Origin: Pirellulales bacterium
GTDB taxonomy: Bacteria > Planctomycetota > Planctomycetia > Pirellulales > Lacipirellulaceae
DNA: 64,000 bases
Direction of reading: 5' to 3'
Assembly: GCA_019636345.1 (NCBI GenBank)
Contig: JAHBXQ010000010.1
Span: 62,001 to 126,000 of the forward strand
The translations under genes and the position numbers were made by a program. The notes under the pieces were generated by a model that had not been told where the DNA came from, made no database searches, and saw only the letters and a list, made by a program, of their open reading frames with translations. Positions 31,219 through 50,430 of this stretch are shown piece by piece (position 1 is the stretch's first letter; every line of letters begins with the position of its first letter).

Positions 31219-34200
31219 TCACACGGGCGCCGCCCGACTGGCGGCCAAGTGTTCGGCGAGGAACCCCGCGAGGTCGCCGCGGTGCAGGTCTTCGGAGTTG
31301 GCGAATCGCAGCTTGACTTGGTCGCCGCCGTCGGCGGCGACGATCGCTCGCCGCGCGGCCAACTCGGCGATCCGCCCCGTGGCGAACGCGCCGCCGGGGC
31401 CGGACAGCACCAGATCCACCCCCGCGAGCCGCTTGGTGTGGACCGTCGCCCACGGCTCGCTGCGGCCGCGGACCATCACGTGGACCACTTGCTGGTTGTT
31501 CCACAAGAACTGCCCGCCGGCGCCGTCGGCGCCCGCGTCGGCCTGCGCGCCGTCGCCGGCCGTTTCGTGGAGCAGCTCCAACAACTCTTCAAGCACTTCG
31601 ACCGACCACTCGACCTTCTTCCCGGGCGGAAAGCCCTTGCGCGCCAGGTGCCACTTGCGGCCCAGTTTCTTCCACGGCATCAGGTCCTCGGGGTTCTCCG
31701 CCGCCTGGGCGGCGAAGTGACCGAACCCGGCGACTGCTTTTTCCAGGAAGCTCCAAAACGCGGGGACGTCGATCTCCTCCCAACTGTGGGCGTTGATCTG
31801 CACCTCCTGGAACGGCCCGCGGAGGTTCTTGCACTTCACCCGCGGGTCGTTGCCGTATTGTTCGATGTGGTCGACTTGGTTGAGGGGCGCCAGGTTCAGG
31901 TCGGCGAGCAGTTGCTCGCGGCGAAACGTGCTGCGGCCCGTGCGGAACTTGAGCTTCAGCAGCCATGGTTCGCCGGTGATGGCGTGAAAGAACCAGCCGT
32001 CCGATTTCTTCGCGGCGGCAATCTCGACGACGGTGCGACTGCTGCTCCAGTCGGTGGGGCTGAACTCGCCCAGTTCGTGGATCCGCCGTTCGATCGCGTC
32101 GAGGATCCGCCCGTCCCACCGGCAGGGCGCGCCGCTGCGGCTTACGCGGTCGCGGGTGTGCCAGCCCCGGCCGTCGATCTCCCACGGCATGCGAATGTCG
32201 CGCCCCAGGTCCTCGATGTCGAGGTCGCCGGCACGCCGCTTCTCCGCCGCCGCGGGATCGTAACGCTTCCGCTCGACCTGCGGCCCCGCGGCCAGCACGG
32301 GGGCGAGCGCCAGCGCGGTATGAGAAACCAAGGAGGGGGGCGGAAGGGGGATGAGGGAATTGGCGGCGGTCGTTCGGCTCGATGGCGTCGACCCCTTTCG
32401 CTTGTCGTCTGCCGCCTTCCCTCCTTGCCGGACAATCATCTCCGGCGTTCCGCACGCCACGATCGTCCCGCCTCCGTCGCCCGCTTCGGGCCCGACGTCG
32501 ATGATCCAGTCGCACTGCTTGACGACGTCGAGATTGTGCTCGATCACCACCACCGTGTTCCCCAGATCGACCAACCGGTGGAGCACCTCCAGCAGCTTGG
32601 CGACGTCGTCGAAGTGGAGCCCCGTGGTCGGTTCGTCGAGCAGATACAGGGTTCGGCCGGTATCGGGGCGGGCCAGTTCGGCGGCCAGTTTGACGCGCTG
32701 CGCTTCGCCCCCCGAGAGGGTCGCGGCGCTTTGCCCCAACGCGACGTAATCGAGCCCCACGTCGCACAGCGTCTGCAGGATGCGGCGAATCTTCGGGATG
32801 TTGGCGAACAGCAGAGCCGCCTCGCCGCACGACATCTCGAGCACCTCGGCGATCGACCGCCCGCGGTACTTCACGCCCAGCGTCTCGGGGTTGTAGCGAT
32901 GGCCGCCGCATTCGTCGCAGTCGACCCAAACGTCGGGCAGAAAGTGCATCTCGATGCACAACTGTCCGGCCCCCTCGCACGATTCGCACCGCCCTCCCGG
33001 CACGTTGAAGCTGAACCGCCGGGCCGAGTACCCGCGCAACTTCGACTCGGGCAGCTGCGCGAACAGTTGCCGAACGAGGTCGAACACGCCGGTGTACGTC
33101 GCCGGGTTCGACGAGGGGGTGTTTCCCAGCGGTCGCTGGTCGACGCGGATCACCTTGTCGATCTGCTCGATTCCGGCAATTCGGTCGTGAGCGCCCGGGT
33201 TGGCGTTCGCCCGGTGAAGCGTCCGGGCGAGGCTCGCGTACAGCACGTCCTCCACGAGCGAGCTCTTCCCCGACCCCGACACCCCGGTCACGGCCGTGAG
33301 CGTCCCGAGGGGGAAATCGACGGTGACGTTCTTGAGATTATGGTGGCGGGCGCCGACGACGCGCAGCGCAGGAGTAGAAGACGTTGGTTGATTGATTGCC
33401 GATGCGGGGGAGTTTGCGTTGCGTGTGACTTTGCCCCGCTTCAGTCCCTCGACATTCTCGCATCCCGCATCGAACGCCACGCGTCTGCTCTTCGGCACGC
33501 CGATCGCCTTCTTCCCGCTGAGATACGGTCCGGTGACGCTGCGGCGGCGTTTGGGGAGTTCGGCGGGGGCTCCCTCGGCGACGATCTCGCCCCCCAGTCG
33601 GCCCGCGGCGGGGCCGAAGTCGAGCAGGCAGTCGGCGCCGGCGATCACCTCGCGATCATGCTCGACCACCAGCAGCGTGTTGCCCAGGTCGCGCAACTTG
33701 TGAAGCGCCCCGAGCAGCCGCGTGTTGTCGCGCGGGTGGAGGCCGATCGTCGGTTCGTCGAGCACGTACAACACGCCGCACAGCCCGCTGCCGACTTGGC
33801 TGGCGAGCCGGATGCGTTGCGACTCGCCCCCCGACAGGGTCGGCGCCCCGCGCCCCAGCGTCAGATACTCCAGTCCCACGTCGACCAGAAACGTGAGCCG
33901 GTTGCGGATCTCGCGCACCAGTTCGCCGGCGATCTTCTTCTGCGCCGCGGGGAGCTTCCACGTCTCGACGGTCGGCAGCAACTCGCCCAGCGGCAGTCGG
34001 CAATACTGGTCGATCGACCGGCCCTGAAATTTCGCCGCCGCGGCGTCGTCGCGCAGCCGCGTCCCGCCGCACTGGCTGCATTCGATCTCGCCGACCAAGT
34101 GCTCGAGCCGCCCCCGCAACCGCGGCGACAATCGCGACGCCTCCTCCAGCGCGGGGTAAAGCCCTTTGTATTGAAAGCGAAACGAGGCGCGAGTTGCGGG

Positions 34201-37200
34201 GCGCCCGCTGCGCGCCTTGGCAAGATTGCTCTTCCCCGCGCTCCGCGCCTCGAAACCCGCGCCTAGCTCCGCCTCAATCCACTCCTCTCCCGTCCCGTAC
34301 AGCACCGTGCGACGATGCTTGGGCGAGAGTTGGCTGAACGGCACGTCGAGCGGCAGCCCGGTGCGTTCCGACAGGCCGGCGAGCATTGCCGCGAACAGCG
34401 GCTCGTCGATCTTCGGCCACACCAGCACCGCTCCTTCAGCCAGGGTGAAGTTGAGGCTGCGGAACAGCGCGGTCGGGTCGGCGCCGACCTCGCTCCCCAA
34501 CCCCTCGCACGCCGGGCACCACCCCAGGGCGCTGTTGAACGAAAAGTGATGCGGCGAGAGCGGCTCGAAACTGCGCCCGCAGCCGTTGCACACCCGATGC
34601 TGGCTGTACGTGTGAATGCCCCAGCGATCCTCGGGGACGTTGTCGTCGACGATCGCCAGCCGCATCACTCCCCGACCCAGGGCGAGCGCACTCTCGATGC
34701 TGTCGGCCAACCGCGAGCGACTCTCCTTCTTGATCGTCGCCCGATCGACCACGACGTCGACCTCGTGCTTGCTGCGGCGATCGACCTCGGGCGCCTTGTC
34801 GAGGGGATAGGTCGTGCCGTCGATCCGCACCCGCTGAAACCCGTCGCCGCGCAGTTTTTCCCACAGGTGCGCGTACTTCTCCCCTTGGGCCAGCTCGACC
34901 GGCGCCATGACGTACGCCCGCGTCCCCTCGGGCTCCTTGAGCACCGCGTCGACGATCTCCTGCGGCGATTGCGTGCCGACCGGCAGGTCGCACTCGGGGC
35001 AGTGCATTTGACCCAGCCGGGACAGCAGGATGCGGAAGTAGTCGTAGATCTCGGTGACCGTTCCGACGGTCGACCGCGGCGTGTGTCCCGCAGAGCGCTG
35101 CTCGATGGCGATCGCCGGCGACAATCCCTCGACGCGCTCGACCGCGGGCTTCTGCATCTGCCCGACGAACTGCCGGGCGTAGCTGGACAGGCTCTCGACG
35201 TACCGCCGCTGCCCTTCGGCGTAGATCGTGTCCATGGCGAGCGAGGTCTTGCCGCTGCCGCTCGGGCCGCACAGCACGGTCATCGCGTCGCGAGGGATCT
35301 TGACCGAGACGTCGCGCAGGTTGTGCTGCCGGGCGCCCTCGACCGTGATATGCGTCGCCTGTTTCGCTGCGGGCCGCTTCGCCTTGCGCGCCGCCGCGGC
35401 CTCGGGTAGAGCGACGCCGAGGTAGGGAGCCAGGGCGAGAGCCGTAGGCGAAACGCAGTCCGCGGGCGGCGACGCGCAGGCGGCGACGATTTGCTCGGGA
35501 GTTCCCGCCGCCACGACCCGGCCTCCCCCCGCTCCGCCGTCGGGGCCGACGTCGATGATCCAGTCGGCCGTCTTGATCACGTCCAGGTTGTGTTCGACCA
35601 CCAGCACCGTGTTTCCCGCATCGACGAAGTCGTGCAGCACCTTGAGCAGCAGCTCGATGTCGGCGAAGTGGAGCCCGGTGGTCGGTTCGTCGAGCAGATA
35701 GAGCGTTCGCCCGGTCGACTTCTTCACCAGTTCGCGAGCCAGCTTGATCCGCTGCGCCTCGCCCCCGGAGAGCGTCGGCGACGGCTGGCCCAGCTTCATG
35801 TAGTCGAGCCCCACGGCGTGGAGCGTCGCCAGTCGATCGTGGATCGCGGGGATGTTCTCGAAGTGCTCGAGCGCCTGTTGAACGTCCATCTCCAACACGT
35901 CGGCGATCGAGGCGCCTTTGTACTCGACCTGCAGCGTCTCGTGCTCGAACCGGCGCCCCTGGCACACGGGGCACGTAAGCCACACGTCGGCCAGAAAGTC
36001 CATCTCCAGCTTGTTCGAGCCGTTTCCCTGGCACGCCTCGCACCGCCCCCCCGCGACGTTGAAGCTGAACCGTCCCGCCTTGTACCCGCGCCGCTTCGAT
36101 TCGGGGAGCTGCGTGTACAGCTTGCGGATTTCGTCGAACACCTTGATGTACGTCGCGGGGTTCGAGCGCGGCGTGCGGCCGATGGGGGACTGATCGATCG
36201 CGATCATTTTGTCGAGATGCTCGAGTCCCTCGATCCGGTCGTGGTCGCCCGGCTCCCCTTTCCCGCCGTTGAGATCGCGGCGCAGGGCCTCGACGACGAT
36301 GTCGTTGACCAGCGAGCTTTTTCCGCTCCCCGAGGCGCCGGTGACGCACACGAACGCCCCCAGCGGGACGTCGACCGTGACGTTCTTCAGATTGTTGTGC
36401 CGGGCCCCGACGATGCGCAGGATCGCGGGAGCAGCAGGGGGGAGGACGGGCGGCGGAGCTGCGGCGTCGCCCTTTTCCCTCCCGACGTCTCCCGTGAGGT
36501 CCGTTCCGGCATGGCTCGACGAGACCATTCTTCGCTTCGCCGGCACGGCGATCCCGCGCTTGCCGCTCAAGAACGCCCCCGTCACGCTGTCGCGCTTCTT
36601 GGCGATCTCGGCGGCGGTCCCCTCGGCGACGACGTAGCCGCCGCGCACGCCGGGGCCGGGGCCGAAGTCGATGACGTGGTCCGCGGCCCGCATCGTGTCT
36701 TCGTCGTGCTCGACGACGACGACCGTGTTGCCCAGGTCGCGCAGCTGCTCGAGCGTTCCCAGCAAGCGGTCGTTGTCGCGGGGATGGAGGCCGATCGACG
36801 GCTCGTCGAGGATGTAGGTCACTCCGACCAGTCCGCAGCCGATCGCCCCGGCGAGGCGAATCCGCTGCGACTCGCCTCCCGACAACGTCGGCGCCGTCCG
36901 CTCGAGCGACAGGTATTCGAGCCCCACGTTCGTCAGGAATCCCAGCCGGCCGCGGACCTCCTTGAGCAGTTCCGTCGCGATCGTCGTCTGCGTCGCGTCG
37001 AGCACAAGCGCGCTGAAGAATTCGGCCGCATCGCTCACCGGCAACGCGCACACCTCCGGCAGCGAACGAGTCGGTTTGTCCTCAAATCGGGGGCTCGCGG
37101 TCGCGAGCGTCACCGCGCATGCCTGCGGGTTGAGCCGCCGCCCCTGGCAGTCGGGACAGCGGATGACGTTCATGAACTGTTCGAGCTTGGCGATCAGCGA

Positions 37201-38553
37201 CTTCGCCTTCGCGTTGCGATACTTCTCGAGCAGTTCGGGAATGATTCCGTCAAAGGTCCCGCCGTACTTCTGGGCGCTCTTTCCGCCGCGCCAGGTGAAG
37301 GTGATGTGCTCCTTGCCCGTCCCCCACAGCCACAATCGGCGATGGTCTTCTGTCAGCTCTTGCCACGGGGTTTCGAGCAAATGGCCCGGCGCGAGCTCCA
37401 GCTTCCGTTCCATCGTCTCGGCGACGCCGGCGTAGATATGCCGTTTCCACCGGCCGAGGTCCTTCCACGGGCCGACCAGTTCGATGGCGCCCTGGGCGAA
37501 GGACTTCTCGGGGGCGCTGGCCAGCCGTTGCGGGTCGAAGCTGAACATGTCCCCCAGCCCGTCGCACGCGGGACACATCCCCTGCGGGCTGTTGAAGCTG
37601 AACAGTTGCGGCGTCGGCGCCTGGAAGCTGAGCCCGCACGGCGTGCAGGCGTAGTCGGCGCTGAGGAACAGGTCGCTCGTGACGGCGGCAGTCGTCGGCA
37701 CGCCGGGGTCGCCGTCGGCAGCGTCCCCAGGCGTTTCGTCGGCCGCATCGTCGACGTCTTTTTCCCGCCGCCGGGGGTTGCGCTTGGCTGCGACCTCAGC
37801 CGCTCGCGGGGAGTCGTCCGACGACCCTGCGCCGGATTCGCTCGCGATGACGAGATTGCCCTCGCCCAGCTTGAGCGCCAATTCGACCGCCTCGGCCAGG
37901 CGCGAGCGCACGTTCGGCCCGGCGACGAGCCGATCGACGACCACTTCGATGTCGTGCCGCATCTGCCGATCGAGCGCCAAATCGTCGGTCAGCAGCGCCA
38001 CCTTGCCGTCGACCCGCGCGCGGACGAAGCCCTGCTTGCGGAGATCTTCCAGCAGGTCGCGGAACTCACCCTTCTGCCGCCGCGCGACCGGCGCGAGCAC
38101 CGAGAACTTCGTCTTGGTCGGCAGTTGCATGATCCGCGCGAGGATCGCCTCGCGCGACTGCGCGGTGATCGGCAGCCCGCACTGCGGACAGTGCCCCAAC
38201 CCGACCCGTGCGTACAGCACGCGCAGGAAGTCGTAGATCTCGGTGATCGTCCCGACGGTCGAGCGGGGATTCGTGCCCGACGACTTCTGCGAGATCGAGA
38301 TCGACGGCGACAACCCGCTGATGTGATCGACGTCGGGCTTGGGCATCTGCCCCAGGAACTGCCGGGCGAACGTCGAGAGGCTTTCGACGTACCGCCGCTG
38401 TCCCTCGGCGTACAGCGTGTCGAACGCCAGCGAGCTCTTGCCGCTCCCCGACACGCCGGTCAGGCAAATGAGCTTGTTGCGCGGCAAGCGGACGTCGACG
38501 CTGCGCAAGTTGTGCTCGCGGGCGCCTTTGATGATGATGTCGGAGGCGGGCAT
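31219..38553 (-). CDS. uvrA: Excinuclease ABC subunit A, tandem double-length form
   Basis: A 2444-residue protein; ordinary UvrA is about 950. It holds two full UvrA copies head to tail. Copy 1 (about 1-1000) and copy 2 (about 1065-2060) each have two ABC ATPase domains, giving four Walker A motifs: GVSGSGKS at 33-40, GASGSGKSS near 740, GPSGSGKTS near 1095, GVSGSGKSS near 1758. There are four LSGGE signatures, and zinc modules such as [12 protein letters not shown] and [12 protein letters not shown] in the two halves. Residues about 2085-2444 are an extra C-terminal domain with no motif I recognise. UvrA finds bulky DNA lesions and loads UvrB in nucleotide excision repair, normally as a dimer, so this polypeptide may be a covalent dimer. 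The ATG at 38553 starts the canonical [14 protein letters not shown]. No frameshift is seen. Confidence 0.95.
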
Positions 38554-38845
38554 ATCGCAGGAGGCCGCAAAGCGGGCCGCGGGGAGTTCGAGACGCAAGG
38601 CGGGTCGGTCAAGGCGGGCAGAGCGGCGCCACGGCGCTGAAGCGAACCCGACATTGTACGCCCCCCGCACCGCAAGCCAACGCCGAAGATCAAGCTCCCA
38701 AACCCCCGAGCCGGGCAGCGTAAGCTCCCGGAGCCCTCGAGTCCCCCCGACGACCCTTGGCGAATCGCCCCGATTCCCGAGAATAAAGCTGCGATTTCCG
38801 CACGCCCCCTCTCCGCGTCCGTTCTGCACCCCGCGAGCGACACCC
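38554..38845. other. Divergent intergenic region of uvrA and SGNH gene
   Basis: These 292 bases carry the upstream regions of uvrA (minus) and the SGNH hydrolase (plus). No SOS-type LexA box, gene or strong hairpin was found by eye. Confidence 0.3.
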
Positions 38846-39598
38846 ATGCTGCGACGCACTTTGCTTGTTCTTGTCCTGACCGCTGCGGCCCTCGCGTCCG
38901 CCCCCGGCAGTTTCGCTCGCGAGGGCCTGACTCCCAGCGATGGCGCCAAGCGCGCGAAGACTTGGGAGAAGGAGATCGCCGCGATCGAGAACCGCCACGC
39001 CAAGACCCCTGTTCCCGAGCGAGCGATCATCTTCACCGGCTCCAGCAGCGTGCGCCTGTGGGACGTCGCCAAGGGATTCCCCGATCTGCCGGTCGTGAAT
39101 CACGGCTTCGGCGGCTCGCAGATTTGCGATGCGACCCACTTCGCCGAGCGACTGGTCCTCAAGCACAAGCCGAGCGTGATCGTCTTCTACTCCGGCGACA
39201 ACGACGCCGCGGGCGGATTGTCGGTCGAACAAATCCATCGCGACTTTCAAGAGTTCGTCGCCACGGTCCGCGCGGAGCTCCCCGCGACGCCGATCATCGT
39301 CATCAGCGCCAAGCCGAGCGTCGCCCGCTGGAAGCTGGCCGACAAGATGAGCGCCGCGAACCAGCGGATCGCCGCCGACTGCCGACGGGACGAGACGCTC
39401 GAATTCGTCGACGTCTGGCCGGCGATGCTGGGCGACGACGGCCGGCCCCGCCCCGAGATCTTCCGCGAAGACGGGCTCCACCTGAACGATGTAGGCTACG
39501 CGGCCTGGGTCGAGGTCCTCTCCCCAGTGCTTGCCAAGGCCTACGCCGATTCCCGCCCCCCGGCGCTCGACAAACGCTTGCAGCCGATCGCCGAGTGA
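38846..39598 (+). CDS. Secreted SGNH/GDSL-family hydrolase
   Basis: A 250-residue exported esterase-like protein. A signal peptide covers residues 1-24 (LLVLVLTAAALASAPGSFA). The SGNH blocks are visible: FTGSSSVRLW (block I, Ser in place of the GDSL serine), GFGGSQ (block II Gly), YSGDNDAAGG (block III, Asn) and DGLHLNDVGY (block V, Asp and His of the triad). This fits the GDSL-like lipase/acylhydrolase group, which acts on esters or acetylated glycans; the substrate is unknown. Start ATG is at 38846. It is followed by dgt on the same strand after 19 bases, so the two may be co-transcribed although the functions are unrelated. Confidence 0.87.
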   Translation: MLRRTLLVLVLTAAALASAPGSFAREGLTPSDGAKRAKTWEKEIAAIENRHAKTPVPERAIIFTGSSSVRLWDVAKGFPDLPVVNHGFGGSQICDATHFAERLVLKHKPSVIVFYSGDNDAAGGLSVEQIHRDFQEFVATVRAELPATPIIVISAKPSVARWKLADKMSAANQRIAADCRRDETLEFVDVWPAMLGDDGRPRPEIFREDGLHLNDVGYAAWVEVLSPVLAKAYADSRPPALDKRLQPIAE

Positions 39599-41957: not shown

Positions 41958-42064
41958 GATTCGTCGTCCCGCTCCGCTGTCCGAAATCCTGGGCGGTCGC
42001 AGAAACAAGCTGGCTATCGATCTTGAGATCTTGGCGGACCACCCTCGCCATTCTCACGGGCCGC

Positions 42065-42081
42065 TTGGCACGCTGCTTGCA
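42065..42081 (+). promoter_or_regulatory. Sigma-54 (RpoN) promoter of unknown transcript
   Basis: TTGGCACGCTGCTTGCA matches the sigma-54 consensus TGGCACG-N4-TTGCA at every conserved position, with GG (42067-42068) and GC (42079-42080) separated by 10 bases. Transcription would start near 42092. No gene follows within 590 bases on this strand, so the product may be an RNA or a small peptide. Confidence 0.75.
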
Positions 42082-42092
42082 CAATTACTCTT

Positions 42093-42380
42093 GCCGCCCA
42101 GGCAACGGTCGCATTCGCTTGGAACACGAATGAACGGGCCGGATCAGAGATGAGGCTATCTGTCGGGGCCGGTAAGGCGAAGAGGCGCCTTGATGTAAGG
42201 ATCCGCAATCAGTTGATATTCAGTCACTTACGTCGACTCTTCCCCTCCCGTCGGGTCGACGACAAGCGGCTGAGCGGGTCCAGGCAAACGGGCGAGTCCG
42301 GGCTGTTGAAGAGGCTCCCCGGGCTCGCCTGTTCTGCTTTGTGTGTATCGAAATCGAACATGTGTTTGATTTTGATACAC
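42093..42380 (+). ncRNA. Candidate sigma-54-driven small RNA
   Basis: A transcript from the promoter at 42065 would run through gene-free sequence into the hairpin at 42343-42380. The limits given are the predicted start and the end of that hairpin. The idea rests only on promoter position, lack of coding frames and the G-U-containing stem, so it is tentative; the transcript could instead be a long leader of the DUF1549 gene. Confidence 0.3.
42343..42380 (+). repeat. 18-bp hairpin with G-U pairs
   Basis: GTGTATCGAAATCGAACA (42343-42360) pairs with TGTTTGATTTTGATACAC (42363-42380) over 18 positions, 16 Watson-Crick and 2 G-U, around the TG at 42361-42362 (the innermost pairs must open to form a loop). 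The G-U pairs exist only in plus-strand RNA; the minus strand would have A-C mismatches. This favours an RNA structure made from the plus strand. Confidence 0.7.
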
Positions 42381-42607
42381 CTCTCGGGGTCGATCCCTGG
42401 CCCTTTGACGCCCACGGCTGCCGAACTGGTTTGAAGAGCGCGCCGGAACCGAGATGGTCTCCCCGGTTCGGGGCGGCATGCGGACCGGTGAGAGGCGCGT
42501 CCGCGTTGGAGGAGCTCCGTGGGCATGGCGCCCGGCGGTCGTCCGCTGCCGAGAAATCAGCTACGAGAAACGACGCATCACGGCGAAACGATTCGGCGTG
42601 TCGTCGG

Positions 42608-42613
42608 TAGAAT
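42608..42613 (+). promoter_or_regulatory. -10-like element before DUF1549 gene
   Basis: TAGAAT in the context CGGTAGAATACG lies 69 bases upstream of the start at 42682, in a local dip of GC content. No -35 is evident. Confidence 0.35.
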
Positions 42614-42681
42614 ACGTTAGGGGGCGACTGCCGCCAGCCTGTCCCGCGTCTTTTCCTCACGCCCTTGCCCAGGCGCCTGCT

Positions 42682-44490
42682 ATGCCGCACTGCGCGACGC
42701 TCTGCCGCCTGACGCCCGCACTGGCGAGCGTCGTCGCCGTCCTGGCGCTGGGGCTTCTGCCGCTCACGGCCCGCGCCGCCGAGAGCGTCCCCTCGGGCGA
42801 CGCCCTGCTCGAATCGGCTGCCGTCGCCAAGATCGATGAACTGGTCGCCCGCAACTGGGGCGAGCACGGCGTGCGTCCCGCCGCCGCGGCCACCGACGGC
42901 GAATGGTGTCGCCGCGTGTTTCTCGATCTCGTCGGGCGCGTCCCCACGGTCGAGGAACTTGACGCCTTCCTCGCCGTCAAATCGCCGCGCAAACGCGCCG
43001 AGCTTGTCAATCGCCTGCTGGGGAGCGAGTACGAAGCCGAATACGCCCGCAATTGGGGGACGATCTGGACCAATCTCCTCATCGGCCGTACGGGAGGAAC
43101 GCAGCGGCGATCGTTGACCAGCCGCGCGGGGATGACGCGCTACCTCCACGACGCGATGCTCGCCAACAAACCCTACGACCGGCTGGTGCACGAACTGCTG
43201 ACCGCCGTCGGCGACGCCCGGCCCGACATGCCCAATTTCAACGGGGCCGTGAACTTTCTTATCGAGAAGCTCGACGAGGGGGGCGTCCAGGCGACCGCCA
43301 AGACGGCCCAAATCTTCCTCGGGATGGGGGTCCAGTGCACGCAGTGCCACGACCATCCCTCGAACGAGTATCGTCAGAACCAGTTTTGGGAACTCAACGC
43401 CTTCTTCCGGCAGACGCGCGTTCGCTTCACCCGCGACGAGGACGACCCCCGCAGTCGCGAGGCGACGCTGTACGACGTCGACTTCGCCGGCGAGGGGAAA
43501 GGAGACGGCGGCGACTACCGCAGCGACATCGTGCTCGAGTTGCGCGACGGCAAGCTCGTCGATCGCGACGCGGCCGCGATTCGCGAGGCGCCGATCTTTT
43601 TCGAGCAGCGCAACGGCTTGGTTCGAGCCGCGTTTCCGGCGTTCATCGACGGCACGGCCCTGGCCGAGGTGCTGGCCGATCGCGGAACCGAGTACGGCAA
43701 CAGCGGCCGACTGGCCGACGTCCGCCGGCGCGACGAGTTGGCGAAACTGGTCCTCGGGGCGCCCGAACTGTCGCGGGCCGCGGTCAATCGGATGTGGGCC
43801 CACTTCTTCGGCTACGCCTTCACCAAGCCGATCGACGACATGGGCCCCCATAACCCGCCGTCGAATCCCGAACTGCTCGACTTTCTGGCCGAAAACTTCG
43901 CGGCCGGCGGCTACGACCTCAAGGAACTAATCCGGGCGATCGTCCTCAGTCGGCCGTACGCCCTGTCGAGCAAGACCAGCGCCGGCAATGCGGCCGACGA
44001 CCCGCAGCAAGGCCGGCCGCCGCTGTTCGCGCGGTTCTACCTGCGGCAGATGACCGCCGAGCAGTTGTACGACTCGCTGTTGGCCGCGACTCAGGCCGAC
44101 GCCGCCGCTCCCGACGATAGGCGCGACGCGCTGAAGGCCCGCTGGCTCGCCCAGTTCAACACCGCGTTCGGCAACGACGAAGGGACCGAGGGGACGACCT
44201 TCAACGGTTCGATTCCCCAGGCGCTCACTCTGATGAACGGCGAGTTGGTGCGCCGGGCCTGCCGGACCGACGGGGGGAGCTTTCTGGCGAGCGTCGCCAA
44301 CAACGCGTCGCTCTCCAACCGCGAGAAGATCAACTACCTGTACCGCGCGGCGCTCGCCCGCACGCCGACGGGCGAGGAGACCAAGGCGTGCAACAGCCTG
44401 CTGGCGGCCCGCGGCGGCGACGTCCCCGCCACCCTCGCCGACGTCTGGTGGGCCGTGCTGAACAGCAACGAGTTCATTTTGGTGCATTAG
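42682..44490 (+). CDS. Exported DUF1549/DUF1553 domain protein
   Basis: A 602-residue protein. A signal peptide is cleaved near ARAAES (residue 33). The N-terminal part is DUF1549 (VARNWGEHGV, WCRRVFLDLVGRVPTVEELD), and the middle has VQCTQCHDHPSNEY, a CXXCH motif that could bind heme c. The C-terminal part is DUF1553 (RRDELAKLVLGAPELSRAAVNRMWAHFFG). Such proteins are almost confined to Planctomycetes and relatives, usually in pairs with a DUF1501 gene, as here (next gene, 95 bases on). Function is unknown; a secreted redox or glycan-degrading role is often guessed. The ATG at 42682 starts the signal peptide. Confidence 0.92.
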   Translation: MPHCATLCRLTPALASVVAVLALGLLPLTARAAESVPSGDALLESAAVAKIDELVARNWGEHGVRPAAAATDGEWCRRVFLDLVGRVPTVEELDAFLAVKSPRKRAELVNRLLGSEYEAEYARNWGTIWTNLLIGRTGGTQRRSLTSRAGMTRYLHDAMLANKPYDRLVHELLTAVGDARPDMPNFNGAVNFLIEKLDEGGVQATAKTAQIFLGMGVQCTQCHDHPSNEYRQNQFWELNAFFRQTRVRFTRDEDDPRSREATLYDVDFAGEGKGDGGDYRSDIVLELRDGKLVDRDAAAIREAPIFFEQRNGLVRAAFPAFIDGTALAEVLADRGTEYGNSGRLADVRRRDELAKLVLGAPELSRAAVNRMWAHFFGYAFTKPIDDMGPHNPPSNPELLDFLAENFAAGGYDLKELIRAIVLSRPYALSSKTSAGNAADDPQQGRPPLFARFYLRQMTAEQLYDSLLAATQADAAAPDDRRDALKARWLAQFNTAFGNDEGTEGTTFNGSIPQALTLMNGELVRRACRTDGGSFLASVANNASLSNREKINYLYRAALARTPTGEETKACNSLLAARGGDVPATLADVWWAVLNSNEFILVH

Positions 44491-44585
44491 AGAGAGTGAT
44501 GAGAGTTCGGAGGCGAGCGCAGACCTCTCGCCTTTTGGCTCCCCCCACCCTTGTCGAACCTTCGCCCCGAACCCCTTCTTGCCCG

Positions 44586-45839
44586 ATGATCCCTCCTGTC
44601 GGCATGACGCGTCGTCACTTTATGTCCCATCTGGCCGGGGCGAGCGCGCTGGCCGGATCGGCGCTGGCCCTGGGTCGGTCGCTGCGGGCCAACGCGGCGC
44701 AGCTCAAACGGAGTCGCAAGTCGTGCATTCTGCTGTGGATGGGCGGCGGACCGCCCACCATCGACATCTGGGACATGAAGCCCGGCGCCACGACCGGCGG
44801 CGAGTTCAAGCCGATCGCCACCACCGGCGAGGTCCAGATCAACGAGCTCATGCCGAAGCTCGCCAAGCAAATGCACCAGCTTACGGTGGTGCGCTCGATG
44901 AGCACTCGCGAGGCGGACCACACCCGCGGCACGTACTACCTTCACACCGGGTTCGTCCCCAACCCCAACGTCGTCCACCCCAGCTACGGCAGCGTCGTGG
45001 CCAAGGAGGTCCCCGTCCCGGGGCTTGAGATCCCCCCCTTCGTCTCGATCGGCGGCGCCAGCGAGGGGCCCGGCTTCCTCGGCATGGCCTACGCCCCGTT
45101 CCAGGTCGACTCGAACGGCCGCGTCCGCGATCTCGAACGGACGCCCGACGCCGCGCGGATGAACGACCGGATGCAACTGTTGGGGCTGTTGGAGCGTCGC
45201 TTCATCCGCGAAAACCGCGGCAGCGCCGCCGAGGAGCACGCCAAGGTCCTGGAAAGCGCCCGACAACTGATGACGACCGAGCAGATGTCGGCGTTCCGCG
45301 TCGATCAGGAATCCCCGACCACGCGCGAGAAGTACGGCGCCACCGGCTTCGGCCGCGGGTGCCTCATGGCCCGGCGACTCGTCGAGGCGGGCGTGCCGTT
45401 CGTCGAGGTGACGATGGGGGGCTGGGATCTCCATCAAAACTGCTTCGACACGCTCCAGACGAAACTTCCCGAACTCGATCAGGCGATGAGCGCCTTGGTC
45501 GAGGACCTCGTCGACCGCGGGTTGTACGACGACACGATCGTCCTATGGATGGGCGAATTCGGCCGCACTCCGCGGATCAACGCCAACGCGGGCCGCGACC
45601 ACTGGGCCCGCAGTTGGAGCGTGGTCGCCGGCGGCGGCCGGCTCGCCCGCGGCGGCGTCATCGGCGCCACCAATGACGACGGCACGCGCGTCGAGACCGC
45701 CCCCTACAGCAGCGAAGACCTCATGGCGACCGTCTGCCAAGCGATGGGCATCTCGCTCGCCACGACCTATACCGCCTCGAACGGCCGACCGATGAAGATC
45801 GCCGGCGGGGGGAAGACGATCGAGGGGTTGATTGCGTAG
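44586..45839 (+). CDS. Tat-exported DUF1501 family protein
   Basis: A 417-residue protein with a Tat signal (MTRRHFMSHLAGASALAGSA) beginning at the internal Met7. The body is DUF1501, a sulfatase/alkaline-phosphatase-like fold: ILLWMGGGPPTIDIWDMKPG near the N-terminus, STREADHTRGTYYLHTG, and the C-terminal TIVLWMGEFGRTPRINANAG and GRDHWARSW. The His/Asp/Glu residues of these motifs suggest metal binding, though no activity is established for the family. It is paired with the DUF1549 gene upstream, the standard planctomycete arrangement. The start could be ATG 44586 or ATG 44604; neither has a strong ribosome binding site. Confidence 0.92.
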   Translation: MIPPVGMTRRHFMSHLAGASALAGSALALGRSLRANAAQLKRSRKSCILLWMGGGPPTIDIWDMKPGATTGGEFKPIATTGEVQINELMPKLAKQMHQLTVVRSMSTREADHTRGTYYLHTGFVPNPNVVHPSYGSVVAKEVPVPGLEIPPFVSIGGASEGPGFLGMAYAPFQVDSNGRVRDLERTPDAARMNDRMQLLGLLERRFIRENRGSAAEEHAKVLESARQLMTTEQMSAFRVDQESPTTREKYGATGFGRGCLMARRLVEAGVPFVEVTMGGWDLHQNCFDTLQTKLPELDQAMSALVEDLVDRGLYDDTIVLWMGEFGRTPRINANAGRDHWARSWSVVAGGGRLARGGVIGATNDDGTRVETAPYSSEDLMATVCQAMGISLATTYTASNGRPMKIAGGGKTIEGLIA

Positions 45840-47954: not shown

Positions 47955-49319
47955 TCACCCCCGGATCTCTTCCTTTTTGATGTCGTACTTCTCCAGCAGC
48001 CGGTACAGGCTGCGGCGGCTGACTCCCAGGCTGCGGGCCGCGCGCAGCTTGTTGCCGTTCTCGCGGGTGAGCGTCTGCACGACGTGCGCACGAGTGATCG
48101 CGGCCAGATCGGCCTCGGGGTCCATCAAGGCGCTTTGCGGGTTCGCCTCGGCGGCCAGCACCTCGGCCGGCAGGTTGTCGCGTCGCAGCACTTCGTCGTC
48201 GGCCAGAATCTTCATCCGCTCGATCGCGTTGATGAGCTGCCGGACGTTGCCCGGCCAGCTGTAGCGGCGGATCGCCTCGATCGCCGAGGGCTCGAATCGC
48301 CACCCCGGGCCGCGCAGGTGATCGGCGATCAACAACACGTCCTCGCCCCGTTGGCGCAAGGGGGGCAAGTCGATCGTCATGATGTTGATTCGATAGTACA
48401 GGTCGCTGCGGAACCGATGCTCCTCGACCTCCTCGGCCAAGTCGCGATTCGTCGCCGCGACGACGCGCACGTCGACGCGCCGCTCCTTGAGCGACCCGAC
48501 TCGCCGCAGCGAGCCGTCCTCAAGCACCCGCAACAGCTTCGGCTGCAGCGCGGGGGCCAATTCGCCGATCTCGTCGATGAACAGCGTCCCGCCGTCGGCC
48601 ACCTCGAACAACCCGGGCTTGGCGACCGCGGCGCCGGTGAACGCCCCCTTCTCGTGGCCGAACAGTTCGCTTTCCAGGAGCGGCTCGGGGAGCGCCGCGC
48701 AGTTGATCACCACCAGCGGCTTGTCGGCCCGGGGGCTCACCTGATGCAGGGCCCGGGCGACCAGTTCCTTGCCCGTGCCGCTTTCGCCTTGGATGAGGAT
48801 CGGCTTGTCGCTCGGGCCGGCGCGGTCGATGAGCCGGAACACGGCCTTCATCGCCGTCGACTCGCCGATCATCGGCTTCTCGCCGTCGGTGCGATTGATC
48901 AGCGCCCGCAATTGTTCGTTCTCGCGCCGCAGCTTGCGGGTCTCGAGCGCCTTCTTCAGCACGGCGTCGAGCTGCTTCATCCGCACCGGCTTGGTGAGGA
49001 AGTCGCTGGCCCCCAGCTTCATCGCTTCGACGGCCGATTCGATCGTCCCTTCGCCCGTGAGCATGATCGCTTCGGTGTCGGGGCTCTCGGCTTTGATGCG
49101 GCCCAGCAGATCGATCCCCGACATCCCGGGCATGGCCATGTCCAGCACGGCGAGCTGAAACTCGCGTTCCCGGGCCAGGGGGAGGGCGGCCTCGCCGGTC
49201 CCCGCTTCGGCGACAGCGTAGCCGAGTTCCCCGAAGTAACGCGCCATGCCGCGACGAAGATCGTCGTCGTCGTCGACCAACAGGAGATCCACAGGGACTG
49301 AAGAGTGCGAAGCGGGCAT
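47955..49319 (-). CDS. Sigma-54-dependent response regulator (NtrC type)
   Basis: A 454-residue transcriptional activator. It has a receiver (residues 10-125, phospho-Asp60 in AVLDMAMPG, Lys110 in FLTKP) and an AAA+ sigma-54 interaction domain (about 150-380). The latter has Walker A GESGTGKE at 178-185, the sigma-54 contact loop GAFTGA at 225-230, Walker [13 protein letters not shown] and the Arg-finger region [11 protein letters not shown] Fis-type HTH ends the protein ([20 protein letters not shown]). All parts needed to drive sigma-54 promoters are intact. The start is ATG at 49319. Its kinase is not adjacent. Across the 510-base divergent gap lies a consensus sigma-54 promoter reading into hemerythrin, a likely target. 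Confidence 0.95.
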
Positions 49320-49743
49320 GGCAAGTCTCAATCTAACGCGCCGCACACCGACCGAGGAGCGCAGGGCGCGCTGCAGAACTCGTCGGCGTTTGCGGTGGGA
49401 GGAGCGGAGTCGGGACTCCAACTCATGCCCCAAAAATACGGCTGGGGGCCGGCTCAAGCGGCGAACTTGATCCCGAGGGGACCGCCAGTCCCCAGCCGTC
49501 CCATCGGGTGTGCAAGTCGTGCGCCGGAGCGAACGCTCGCTCTGGTTTCGATGGAAACCGGGGATTCCTGCCCCCGAGTTCCGCTGAGCTGACCGCGACC
49601 GGCGTCGACCGGCAGGCCGCGGGCCCCGACTGTGCGGCCTCGCACACCAACGTCGACACGACGGCTCAGCGCCCCGCTTCCCCCGGCGGAACCTGGGCGC
49701 TGGCCACGCCGAAAATCGCCGCCTTCCCTCGCAAAATCTCCCG
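49320..49743. other. Divergent control region of sigma-54 regulator and hemerythrin
   Basis: No gene is supported. This is the space in which an activator site for the sigma-54 promoter at 49744 would be expected. A minus-strand sigma-54-like sequence at 49512-49525 has the right spacing and a TTGC element but a poor -24 (CGGCGCA), so it is only possible autoregulation. Confidence 0.4.
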
Positions 49744-49760
49744 TTGGCACGCGGCTTGCC
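49744..49760 (+). promoter_or_regulatory. Sigma-54 (RpoN) promoter of hemerythrin gene
   Basis: TTGGCACGCGGCTTGCC matches TGGCACG-N4-TTGC fully, with GG at 49746-49747 and GC at 49758-49759 (10 apart). Transcription would begin near 49771, giving a leader of about 60 bases with AGGAG before the hemerythrin start. Confidence 0.85.
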
Positions 49761-49829
49761 TTTCCTCCCTCCGTGTTTCCAGGCGCCGCTTGACGAACTG
49801 CTTTTCGTCCTTACACAGGAGCCCCCAGC

Positions 49830-50276
49830 ATGGCGCAAGACGTCACGAATCACAAGCTCGCCGACGCCGTGCAGGTCGACCATCACGAGCTCAACGGTCT
49901 GCTGGCCGACATCCGCAAACAGTTCGCGGACCAGCGGCGTTCGAAACGAGCCCTCGAGAAACTCGTCACTCAGCTCGCCGAGTTGTGCGAAGGCCACTTT
50001 CAGCGCGAGGAGGAGGGGGGATACATGCGCGAAGCCGTGCATCAGGCCCCGCAACTCGCCTCGCGCGCCAAGACCCTGGGGGACGAGCACGAACCGCTCC
50101 AGGAAGCGATCGAGAAACTGCGGATCCTCGTCCACTCGGGGGTCGAATCCGCCGCGTGGTGGGTCCGCGTGCAGAGCGACTTCAGCAGCTTCGCCAAGAC
50201 GATCTCCCGCCACGAGTCGGAAGAGAACGCGCTGCTGCAGGAAGCCTTCACCCAAGACGTCGGAACGAAGGATTAG
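49830..50276 (+). CDS. Hemerythrin-like protein
   Basis: A 148-residue four-helix protein of the hemerythrin/HHE type, which binds a di-iron centre and carries or senses oxygen, nitric oxide or iron. Candidate ligands are His18/His19 in QVDHHELN, His56 with Glu60 in EGHFQREEE, His87 in DEHEPL and His128 with Glu132 in SRHESEEN. There is no signal peptide. Start ATG 49830 has AGGAG 10 bases upstream. It lies behind a consensus sigma-54 promoter and divergent from a sigma-54 activator gene, so expression is very probably switched on by such an activator. The following CBS gene, 154 bases on, may be part of the same unit. Confidence 0.88.
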   Translation: MAQDVTNHKLADAVQVDHHELNGLLADIRKQFADQRRSKRALEKLVTQLAELCEGHFQREEEGGYMREAVHQAPQLASRAKTLGDEHEPLQEAIEKLRILVHSGVESAAWWVRVQSDFSSFAKTISRHESEENALLQEAFTQDVGTKD

Positions 50277-50430
50277 AGGATTCAACGAGCGATAACAGAT
50301 TCCAGCGCCAAGCTCCGGCTCCCGTCGGTATTGTTCTTGGCTGATCCCGATCGTGCGCGGCGGTTCCCGCGCCTTGCGCGGTTCTCACAAGGCCCGCCCC
50401 CTCGGCTCATGTTGGAGAGGAACGCTTGCC

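Follow-up and report, generated by a model that had tools for sequence, protein, structure and literature searches.

What does a sigma-54 promoter control when no convincing gene lies directly behind it? This question was raised by a locus in a 64,000-nucleotide stretch of DNA from a Pirellulales bacterium (Lacipirellulaceae), which we refer to as the window. An earlier note, made from the sequence of the window, had described a promoter of this type followed by a hairpin and had proposed either an undescribed sigma-54-controlled small RNA (sRNA) or a long regulated leader of the downstream DUF1549 gene. Based on a comparison with related genomes, we consider it reasonably probable that the locus would be a gene for a small regulatory RNA that is driven by sigma-54, terminated at a hairpin we call P4, controlled through a second element, P5, serving as the enhancer of an activator, and active in trans. 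The features on which this reading is built are collected in Table 1.

Table 1. Predicted features of the sRNA locus and its downstream genes, in window coordinates.
Feature	Position	Strand	Basis
Sigma-54 (-24/-12) promoter, TTGGCACGCTGCTTGCA	42065..42081	+	Sequence; score of at least 20 of 22 in 72/75 loci
Predicted small RNA, ~250 nt	42092..42341	+	Conserved block in relatives; sense fold preferred
Hairpin P2, TTGGAAC loop	42112..42132	+	Window fold; similar hairpin in most of 12 aligned loci
Motif copy 1, GGGCCGGATCAGAGATGAGGC	42136..42156	+	Sequence and comparison
Motif copy 2, GGGGCCGGTAAGGCGAAGAGGC	42165..42186	+	Sequence and comparison
Hairpin P3, apical part, CCCCTCCC loop	42231..42261	+	Window fold; CCTCCC-type loop in relatives
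P4, predicted intrinsic-terminator hairpin with weak T tract, GAAGAGGC in loop	42287..42341	+	Covariation, G-U bias
Putative tandem DNA site 1, TGT-N11-ACA dyad (first arm of the hairpin described earlier)	42344..42360	.	Comparison
Putative tandem DNA site 2, TGT-N11-ACA dyad (second arm of the hairpin described earlier)	42363..42379	.	Comparison
DUF1549 (PSCyt2) and DUF1553 (PSD1) gene	42682..44490	+	Pfam; start by signal-peptide-like N-terminus
DUF1501 gene	44580..45839	+	Pfam

A DNA search with positions 41960-42700 in 59 genomes, the window's own included, returned a match in the same genus that covered exactly 42065-42380 (83%, E 1.3e-88), i.e., from the start of the promoter to the end of the second hairpin, P5. 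Partial matches were found in 11 further genomes. In 10 of them, the matched stretch formed part of the same unit, in which the promoter and the two motifs GGGGCCGG and AGAGAAGAGGC are accompanied by a hairpin resembling a terminator and by P5; in the eleventh, G004, the match lay elsewhere, and a covariance model located the unit at another place of that genome. The covariance model R1, which comprises the terminator and P5 and was built from 12 family sequences, matched 35 of the 43 family genomes (own included) at E <=0.1. Across the order Pirellulales, it matched 125 of 396 genomes at E <=0.001, 35 of these 125 being members of the family, and 74 of the 144 genera were represented. The match was nearly always at a single place per genome, with second matches being mostly its complementary strand. 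A class-level sample of 297 genomes gave 38 with a match at E <=1e-4, and the two hits outside the order (G583 and G584) were both short. A pattern scan of named genomes yielded 11 records, 10 with an R1 match; Aeoliella straminimaris (Pirellulales, Lacipirellulaceae) carries the unit and has an R1 match, and a Singulisphaera record (L171) has a pattern hit without one. The A. straminimaris match agrees in coordinates and score with the one in G021, which points to Lacipirellulaceae as the probable family of the window. As judged by these sequence comparisons, the unit is confirmed to be real and conserved far beyond chance. Its anatomy was studied in 75 loci, 35 from the family and 40 from other families, which are a subset of the 125 matching order genomes; one analysis of the 12 related loci took 11 of them, leaving out that of G018.

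A search of the window against Rfam with E values up to 5 gave only two miRNA matches (E 2 and E 4), both of which we took as chance, and no match was found at the gathering level in the 12 related loci. The excerpts of the literature on planctomycete sRNAs, sigma-54/RpoN, DUF1549/DUF1501, and downstream enhancers that we consulted held nothing recognized as this RNA.

The promoter that the earlier note had placed at 42065-42081 is present and is the sole exact match to TGGCACNNNNNTTGCW in the window; the sigma-54-like site of the hemerythrin gene at 49745-49760 (+), to which it had been likened, has one mismatch. As a lone motif it carries little weight, with five exact matches in the own genome versus four for the reversed pattern. 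It is its conservation across the homologous loci that makes the predicted promoter convincing: a score of at least 20 of 22 was reached in 72 of the 75 loci, versus 3 of 75 when the identical stretch was read as its reverse complement, so the conservation check suggested in the note came out in its favor. The locus thus appears to have the -24/-12 promoter expected of a sigma-54-dependent small RNA gene. The median distance from the promoter to the downstream P4 is about 220 bases (72 loci), and from the promoter type, transcription would be expected to start near 42092. The motif and folding counts given below were restricted to the 72 loci with a promoter score of at least 20, and the invariance of the promoter letters among them is partly due to this selection.

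Two inverted repeats lie toward the end of the unit. The 18-bp hairpin of the earlier note was readily recovered, with its two G-T positions, at 42343-42360/42363-42380 (P5), and a repeat absent from that note, P4, has 16 bp at 42287-42302/42318-42333, also with two G-T positions. A helix formed in plus-strand RNA should give more G-U than A-C cells across relatives, and we counted both in the 62 best-scoring of the 75 loci and again in all 75. P4 had 97 G-U versus 10 A-C cells in the 62 loci (p 5e-19) and 112 versus 10 in the 75. Its pairing held in 90% of cells, with double-sided changes at 16 of 18 pairs (62 loci), in alignments (A4 and A5) that were fitted to the structure of R1, itself from 12 family members, and therefore lean to pairs for P4 and P5 equally. 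On this covariation and plus-strand G-U bias, P4 is an RNA-specific hairpin and the predicted intrinsic terminator that closes a non-coding unit. The T tract behind it is weak in the window itself.

The same counts gave a different result for P5. It could in principle belong to the RNA as a second hairpin that stabilizes or terminates the transcript, and its 18-bp inverted repeat, with 74% of cells paired and 14 of 18 pairs changed on both sides, agrees with this, as does a within-locus inverted likeness of the arms (11.05 of 17) above all 2,000 between-locus permutations (mean 10.19). However, pairing and double changes would also be expected from a DNA palindrome, and the inverted likeness may be caused by kinship between loci. 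The covariation check on 42343-42380, which had been proposed along with the hairpin, accordingly revealed double changes, yet the G-U and A-C cells were nearly balanced at 75 versus 70 (p 0.74, 62 loci; 81 versus 78 in all 75 loci), and next to the counts for P4 the step from G-U pairs to an RNA fails. In addition, each arm taken singly forms a dyad. Of 150 sites, 127 read as TGT-N11-ACA dyads with an A/T center; the two dyads are separated by two bases in 68 of the 75 loci, and the likeness of the arms was greater in direct than in inverted orientation in 23 of 75 loci (the reverse in 48, with 4 ties). Altogether, P5 is most likely a DNA site that does not behave as an RNA helix, and its being part of the RNA seems very unlikely. 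More generally, what looks like an RNA hairpin can be a palindrome that happens to contain G-T positions, and counts of G-U versus A-C cells over relatives discriminate between the two.

A pattern for the dyad pair alone, drawn up from the studied loci, occurred at exactly one place in 28 of the 59 genomes, own included, versus 1 of 59 for the control. Twenty-six of these places were at R1 hits; the remaining two, in G039 and G046, were missed by R1 and have a sigma-54 promoter and a terminator-like hairpin (by eye) at the expected place, G039 also having the RNA motifs. The G046 locus, L149, may have three sites, since just ahead of the tandem pair there is another TTGCAAAACGCAA-like dyad, which overlaps the first of the two. 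P5 is barely recognizable in L064-L066, three loci that belong to a single genus. Single TGT-N11-ACA sites numbered 12 per strand in the own genome and 9 in the control, and a regulon based on them was dropped, as none was clear. We also dropped a LexA-type box in the center of P5 because relatives do not keep it.

Sigma-54 promoters require an activator bound at an enhancer, and P5 is probably the enhancer of this one. It lies directly 3' of the terminator, including in loci without a DUF1549 neighbor, and no comparable dyad pair was found in the 280 bases upstream of the promoters, where the best pair scores were shuffle-like (median, -16.6; maximum, -5.6). At P5, the median score was 36.9, a value that is circular because the matrix was made from P5. 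We propose that an AAA+ enhancer-binding activator would bind the two tandem 17-bp dyads directly behind the terminator, loop back over about 260 bp, and open the promoter. A few downstream sigma-54 enhancer sites are known elsewhere, and an enhancer directly behind the terminator, if true, would be an unusual sigma-54 layout. The tandem dyads would also offer a bait for the activator and hence for the signal.

As for an activator gene beside the RNA, a search of the loci for GAFTGA/GSFTGA revealed the window's own activator at 48647 and a single frame in the G018 loci, the latter looking unrelated. Among the 7 scored of the 16 PF00158 matches in the genome, none qualified as a LuxO orthologue, with the best at 367 bits and the NCBIfam cut-off at 800. 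The window itself has a sigma-54 activator gene at 47955-50285 (-), which has a receiver-like N-terminus and adjoins the hemerythrin gene. Its product had the highest LuxO-model score of the seven tested, far under the cut-off.

Between the promoter and P4, the predicted RNA contains repeated AGAGAAGAGGC and GGGGCCGG motifs. Compared with shuffles that kept single-base content only, the purine motif occurred 1.96 versus 0.08 times and GGGG(C/T)CGG 1.65 versus 0.10 times per RNA (72 loci). The predicted unpaired fraction was 0.67 for the purine motif, 0.86 for CCUCCC, and 0.27 for GGGG(C/T)CGG, with 0.37 for whole RNAs. A CCTCCC-type loop was present in 33 of the 72 RNAs (27 of the 33 in the window's family), and in 21 of these 33 it sat on a stem of at least 6 bp whose sequence differed between loci, compared with 9% for flanks shuffled with single-base content kept. 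RNAalifold predicted no pairs for the P3 region in 32 of the 35 family loci (L064-L066 left out), and the analysis of P3 was therefore anchored on the C-rich loop; for the 12-locus alignment, it returned P4 and doubtful promoter-P5 pairs. When P4 and P5 were removed and dinucleotide-keeping shuffles were used, the remaining RNA body had the better fold on the sense strand in 58 of the 72 loci. Positions 42092-42400 of the window had a z of -5.4 on the plus strand and -2.6 on the minus strand. The comparison indicates the plus strand as the one transcribed. In a G018 locus (L024, 2994-3333), the P2 hairpin is doubled in tandem with a GGAACAC loop.

That the transcript would be an mRNA encoding a small peptide we regard as highly improbable, close to negligible. 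The window does have overlapping frames, such as one of 94 aa at 42150-42434, but an ATG frame of at least 25 aa lying wholly between start and terminator was found in only 18 of the 72 homologues (GTG and TTG not counted). This low share speaks against a conserved open reading frame at this place, the alternative that the earlier note had set against its own proposal.

C-rich loops complementary to purine-rich ribosome-binding sites are found in some known sRNAs, and because the exposed C-rich loop here has this complementarity, trans pairing is our preferred putative function. In this mechanism, transcription from the sigma-54 promoter would yield a folded RNA some 250 nt long, which we infer to end at P4, and the exposed C-rich loop and the unpaired purine repeats would pair with messenger RNAs in trans, the target of the C-rich loop probably being ribosome-binding sites. 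Trans action of the RNA, taken on its own, is the weakest step of the mechanism and is put forward tentatively, as somewhat doubtful.

The purine motif, repeated and mostly unpaired, would also suit a role as sponge for an RNA-binding protein, along the lines of CsrB/CsrA or CrcZ/Hfq-Crc. CsrA (PF02599) was found in all 39 genomes searched, i.e., the own (G000) and 38 relatives, with 3 to 14 matches each, whereas the search for Hfq (PF17209) gave no hit in any of these 39 and was positive in 5 of 14 controls. Unpaired GGA in the 72 RNAs was slightly above dinucleotide-keeping shuffles (1.46 versus 1.06 per RNA), but GGA overall was not (4.6 versus 5.4), nor was unpaired (A)NGGA (0.53 versus 0.58 with the same dinucleotide-keeping shuffles). 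The many unpaired GGA sites of a CsrB-type RNA were thus not seen in these RNAs, and a CsrA sponge is disfavored because GGA shows no clear enrichment. A sponge role appears unlikely as a whole, although the RNA may titrate a protein other than CsrA or Hfq-Crc. The combination of a multiplied CsrA with no Hfq found in the 39 genomes is an unusual set-up for RNA regulation. The putative sRNA gene, normally present once per genome and spread over 74 of the 144 genera searched, would offer a handle on RNA regulation under such conditions.

Returning to the choice between an independent sRNA and a leader, we examined the genes downstream. DUF1549 followed on the same strand in all of the first 12 loci and in 59 of the 75 (30 of 35 in the family), and DUF1501 lay behind it in all 29 DUF1549-bearing loci among the 40 non-family ones. 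This synteny suggests some tie to the DUF1549 operon. A sigma-54 promoter of its own before DUF1549, behind P5, is rare, with a score of at least 20 in 1 of 74 loci on the plus strand and in as many on the minus strand; read-through from the RNA may therefore add a cis role. Both points would fit a cis leader of the DUF1549-DUF1501 operon, in which a ligand, a protein, or a trans RNA would decide between a stop at P4 and read-through. On the other hand, DUF1549 was not found downstream in 16 of the 75 loci (5 of 35 in the family), one of the 16 ending at a contig edge, so the RNA apparently does not always stand upstream of this gene. When the next genes were chosen mechanically by frame length, the next frame of at least 100 aa was on the opposite strand in four of the five family loci without DUF1549 (G034, G023, G014, and G020, the last also having a 90-aa plus frame that overlaps the terminator), it was on the same strand in the fifth (G065), and it was on either strand in such loci of other families. 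Given these 16 loci, an independent sRNA is more likely than an obligatory leader, and we consider the leader rather unlikely. Of the pair of possibilities in the earlier note, the undescribed sigma-54 sRNA thus gained support from comparison and the leader was weakened. The gene-free stretch of about 590 bases described there holds if DUF1549 starts at 42682; this start is a judgement, as the frame is already open from 42454.

Several known systems share features with this locus. Qrr RNAs act with Hfq, which differs from the situation here, where none of the 39 genomes yielded an Hfq match. Excerpts of the papers on Vibrio Qrr describe sigma-54-linked sRNAs (PMC3352281, PMC11443567, PMC10162802) that resemble the present case in being sigma-54-dependent sRNA genes, with an activator, LuxO, on one or two dyads; the LuxO sites described in them are upstream of the promoter, whereas the dyads here lie behind the terminator. 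The LuxO consensus TTGCAW3TGCAA in these excerpts resembles the dyad core here (PMC11443567, PMC3352281). Only 1 of 150 sites matched it exactly, with 57 of 150 within three mismatches, and the resemblance is therefore a lead. No match to the Rfam family of Qrr was obtained in the window (E up to 5) or in the 12 related loci (gathering level). That the unit would form an order-wide, Qrr-like sRNA switch of planctomycetes, a phylum far from that of Vibrio, in genomes that yielded no Hfq match, with an enhancer behind its own terminator, a dedicated activator whose DNA preference is LuxO-like, and about one target gene per genome, is a speculative reading that we hold to be doubtful on balance.

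Other sRNAs of this class share some of these features. CrcZ/CrcY of Pseudomonadaceae are RpoN-dependent sRNAs with an NtrC-type activator, CbrB (PMC6292655), and are alike in both respects; they counter Hfq-Crc, whereas here no Hfq match was obtained in 39 genomes and Rfam gave no match. For the Myxococcus sRNA Pxr, a sigma-54 promoter has been predicted and an enhancer region described (PMC5684412), which is similar, but the enhancer region there is upstream, and again no Rfam match was seen here. The Rhodopirellula-1 candidate motif of 2010 is tabled for Planctomycetes and Proteobacteria with no Rfam number beside it (PMC2864571); by this table entry, the motif may or may not be identical with the present RNA. 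A 2025 study of sigma-54 regulons covers Planctomycetia (PMC12316311), and the terms "small RNA," "non-coding," and "DUF" are absent from its main text. Elsewhere in the window, a 2,617-aa frame at 31219-39072 (-) looks, by eye, like two UvrA-type proteins in tandem.
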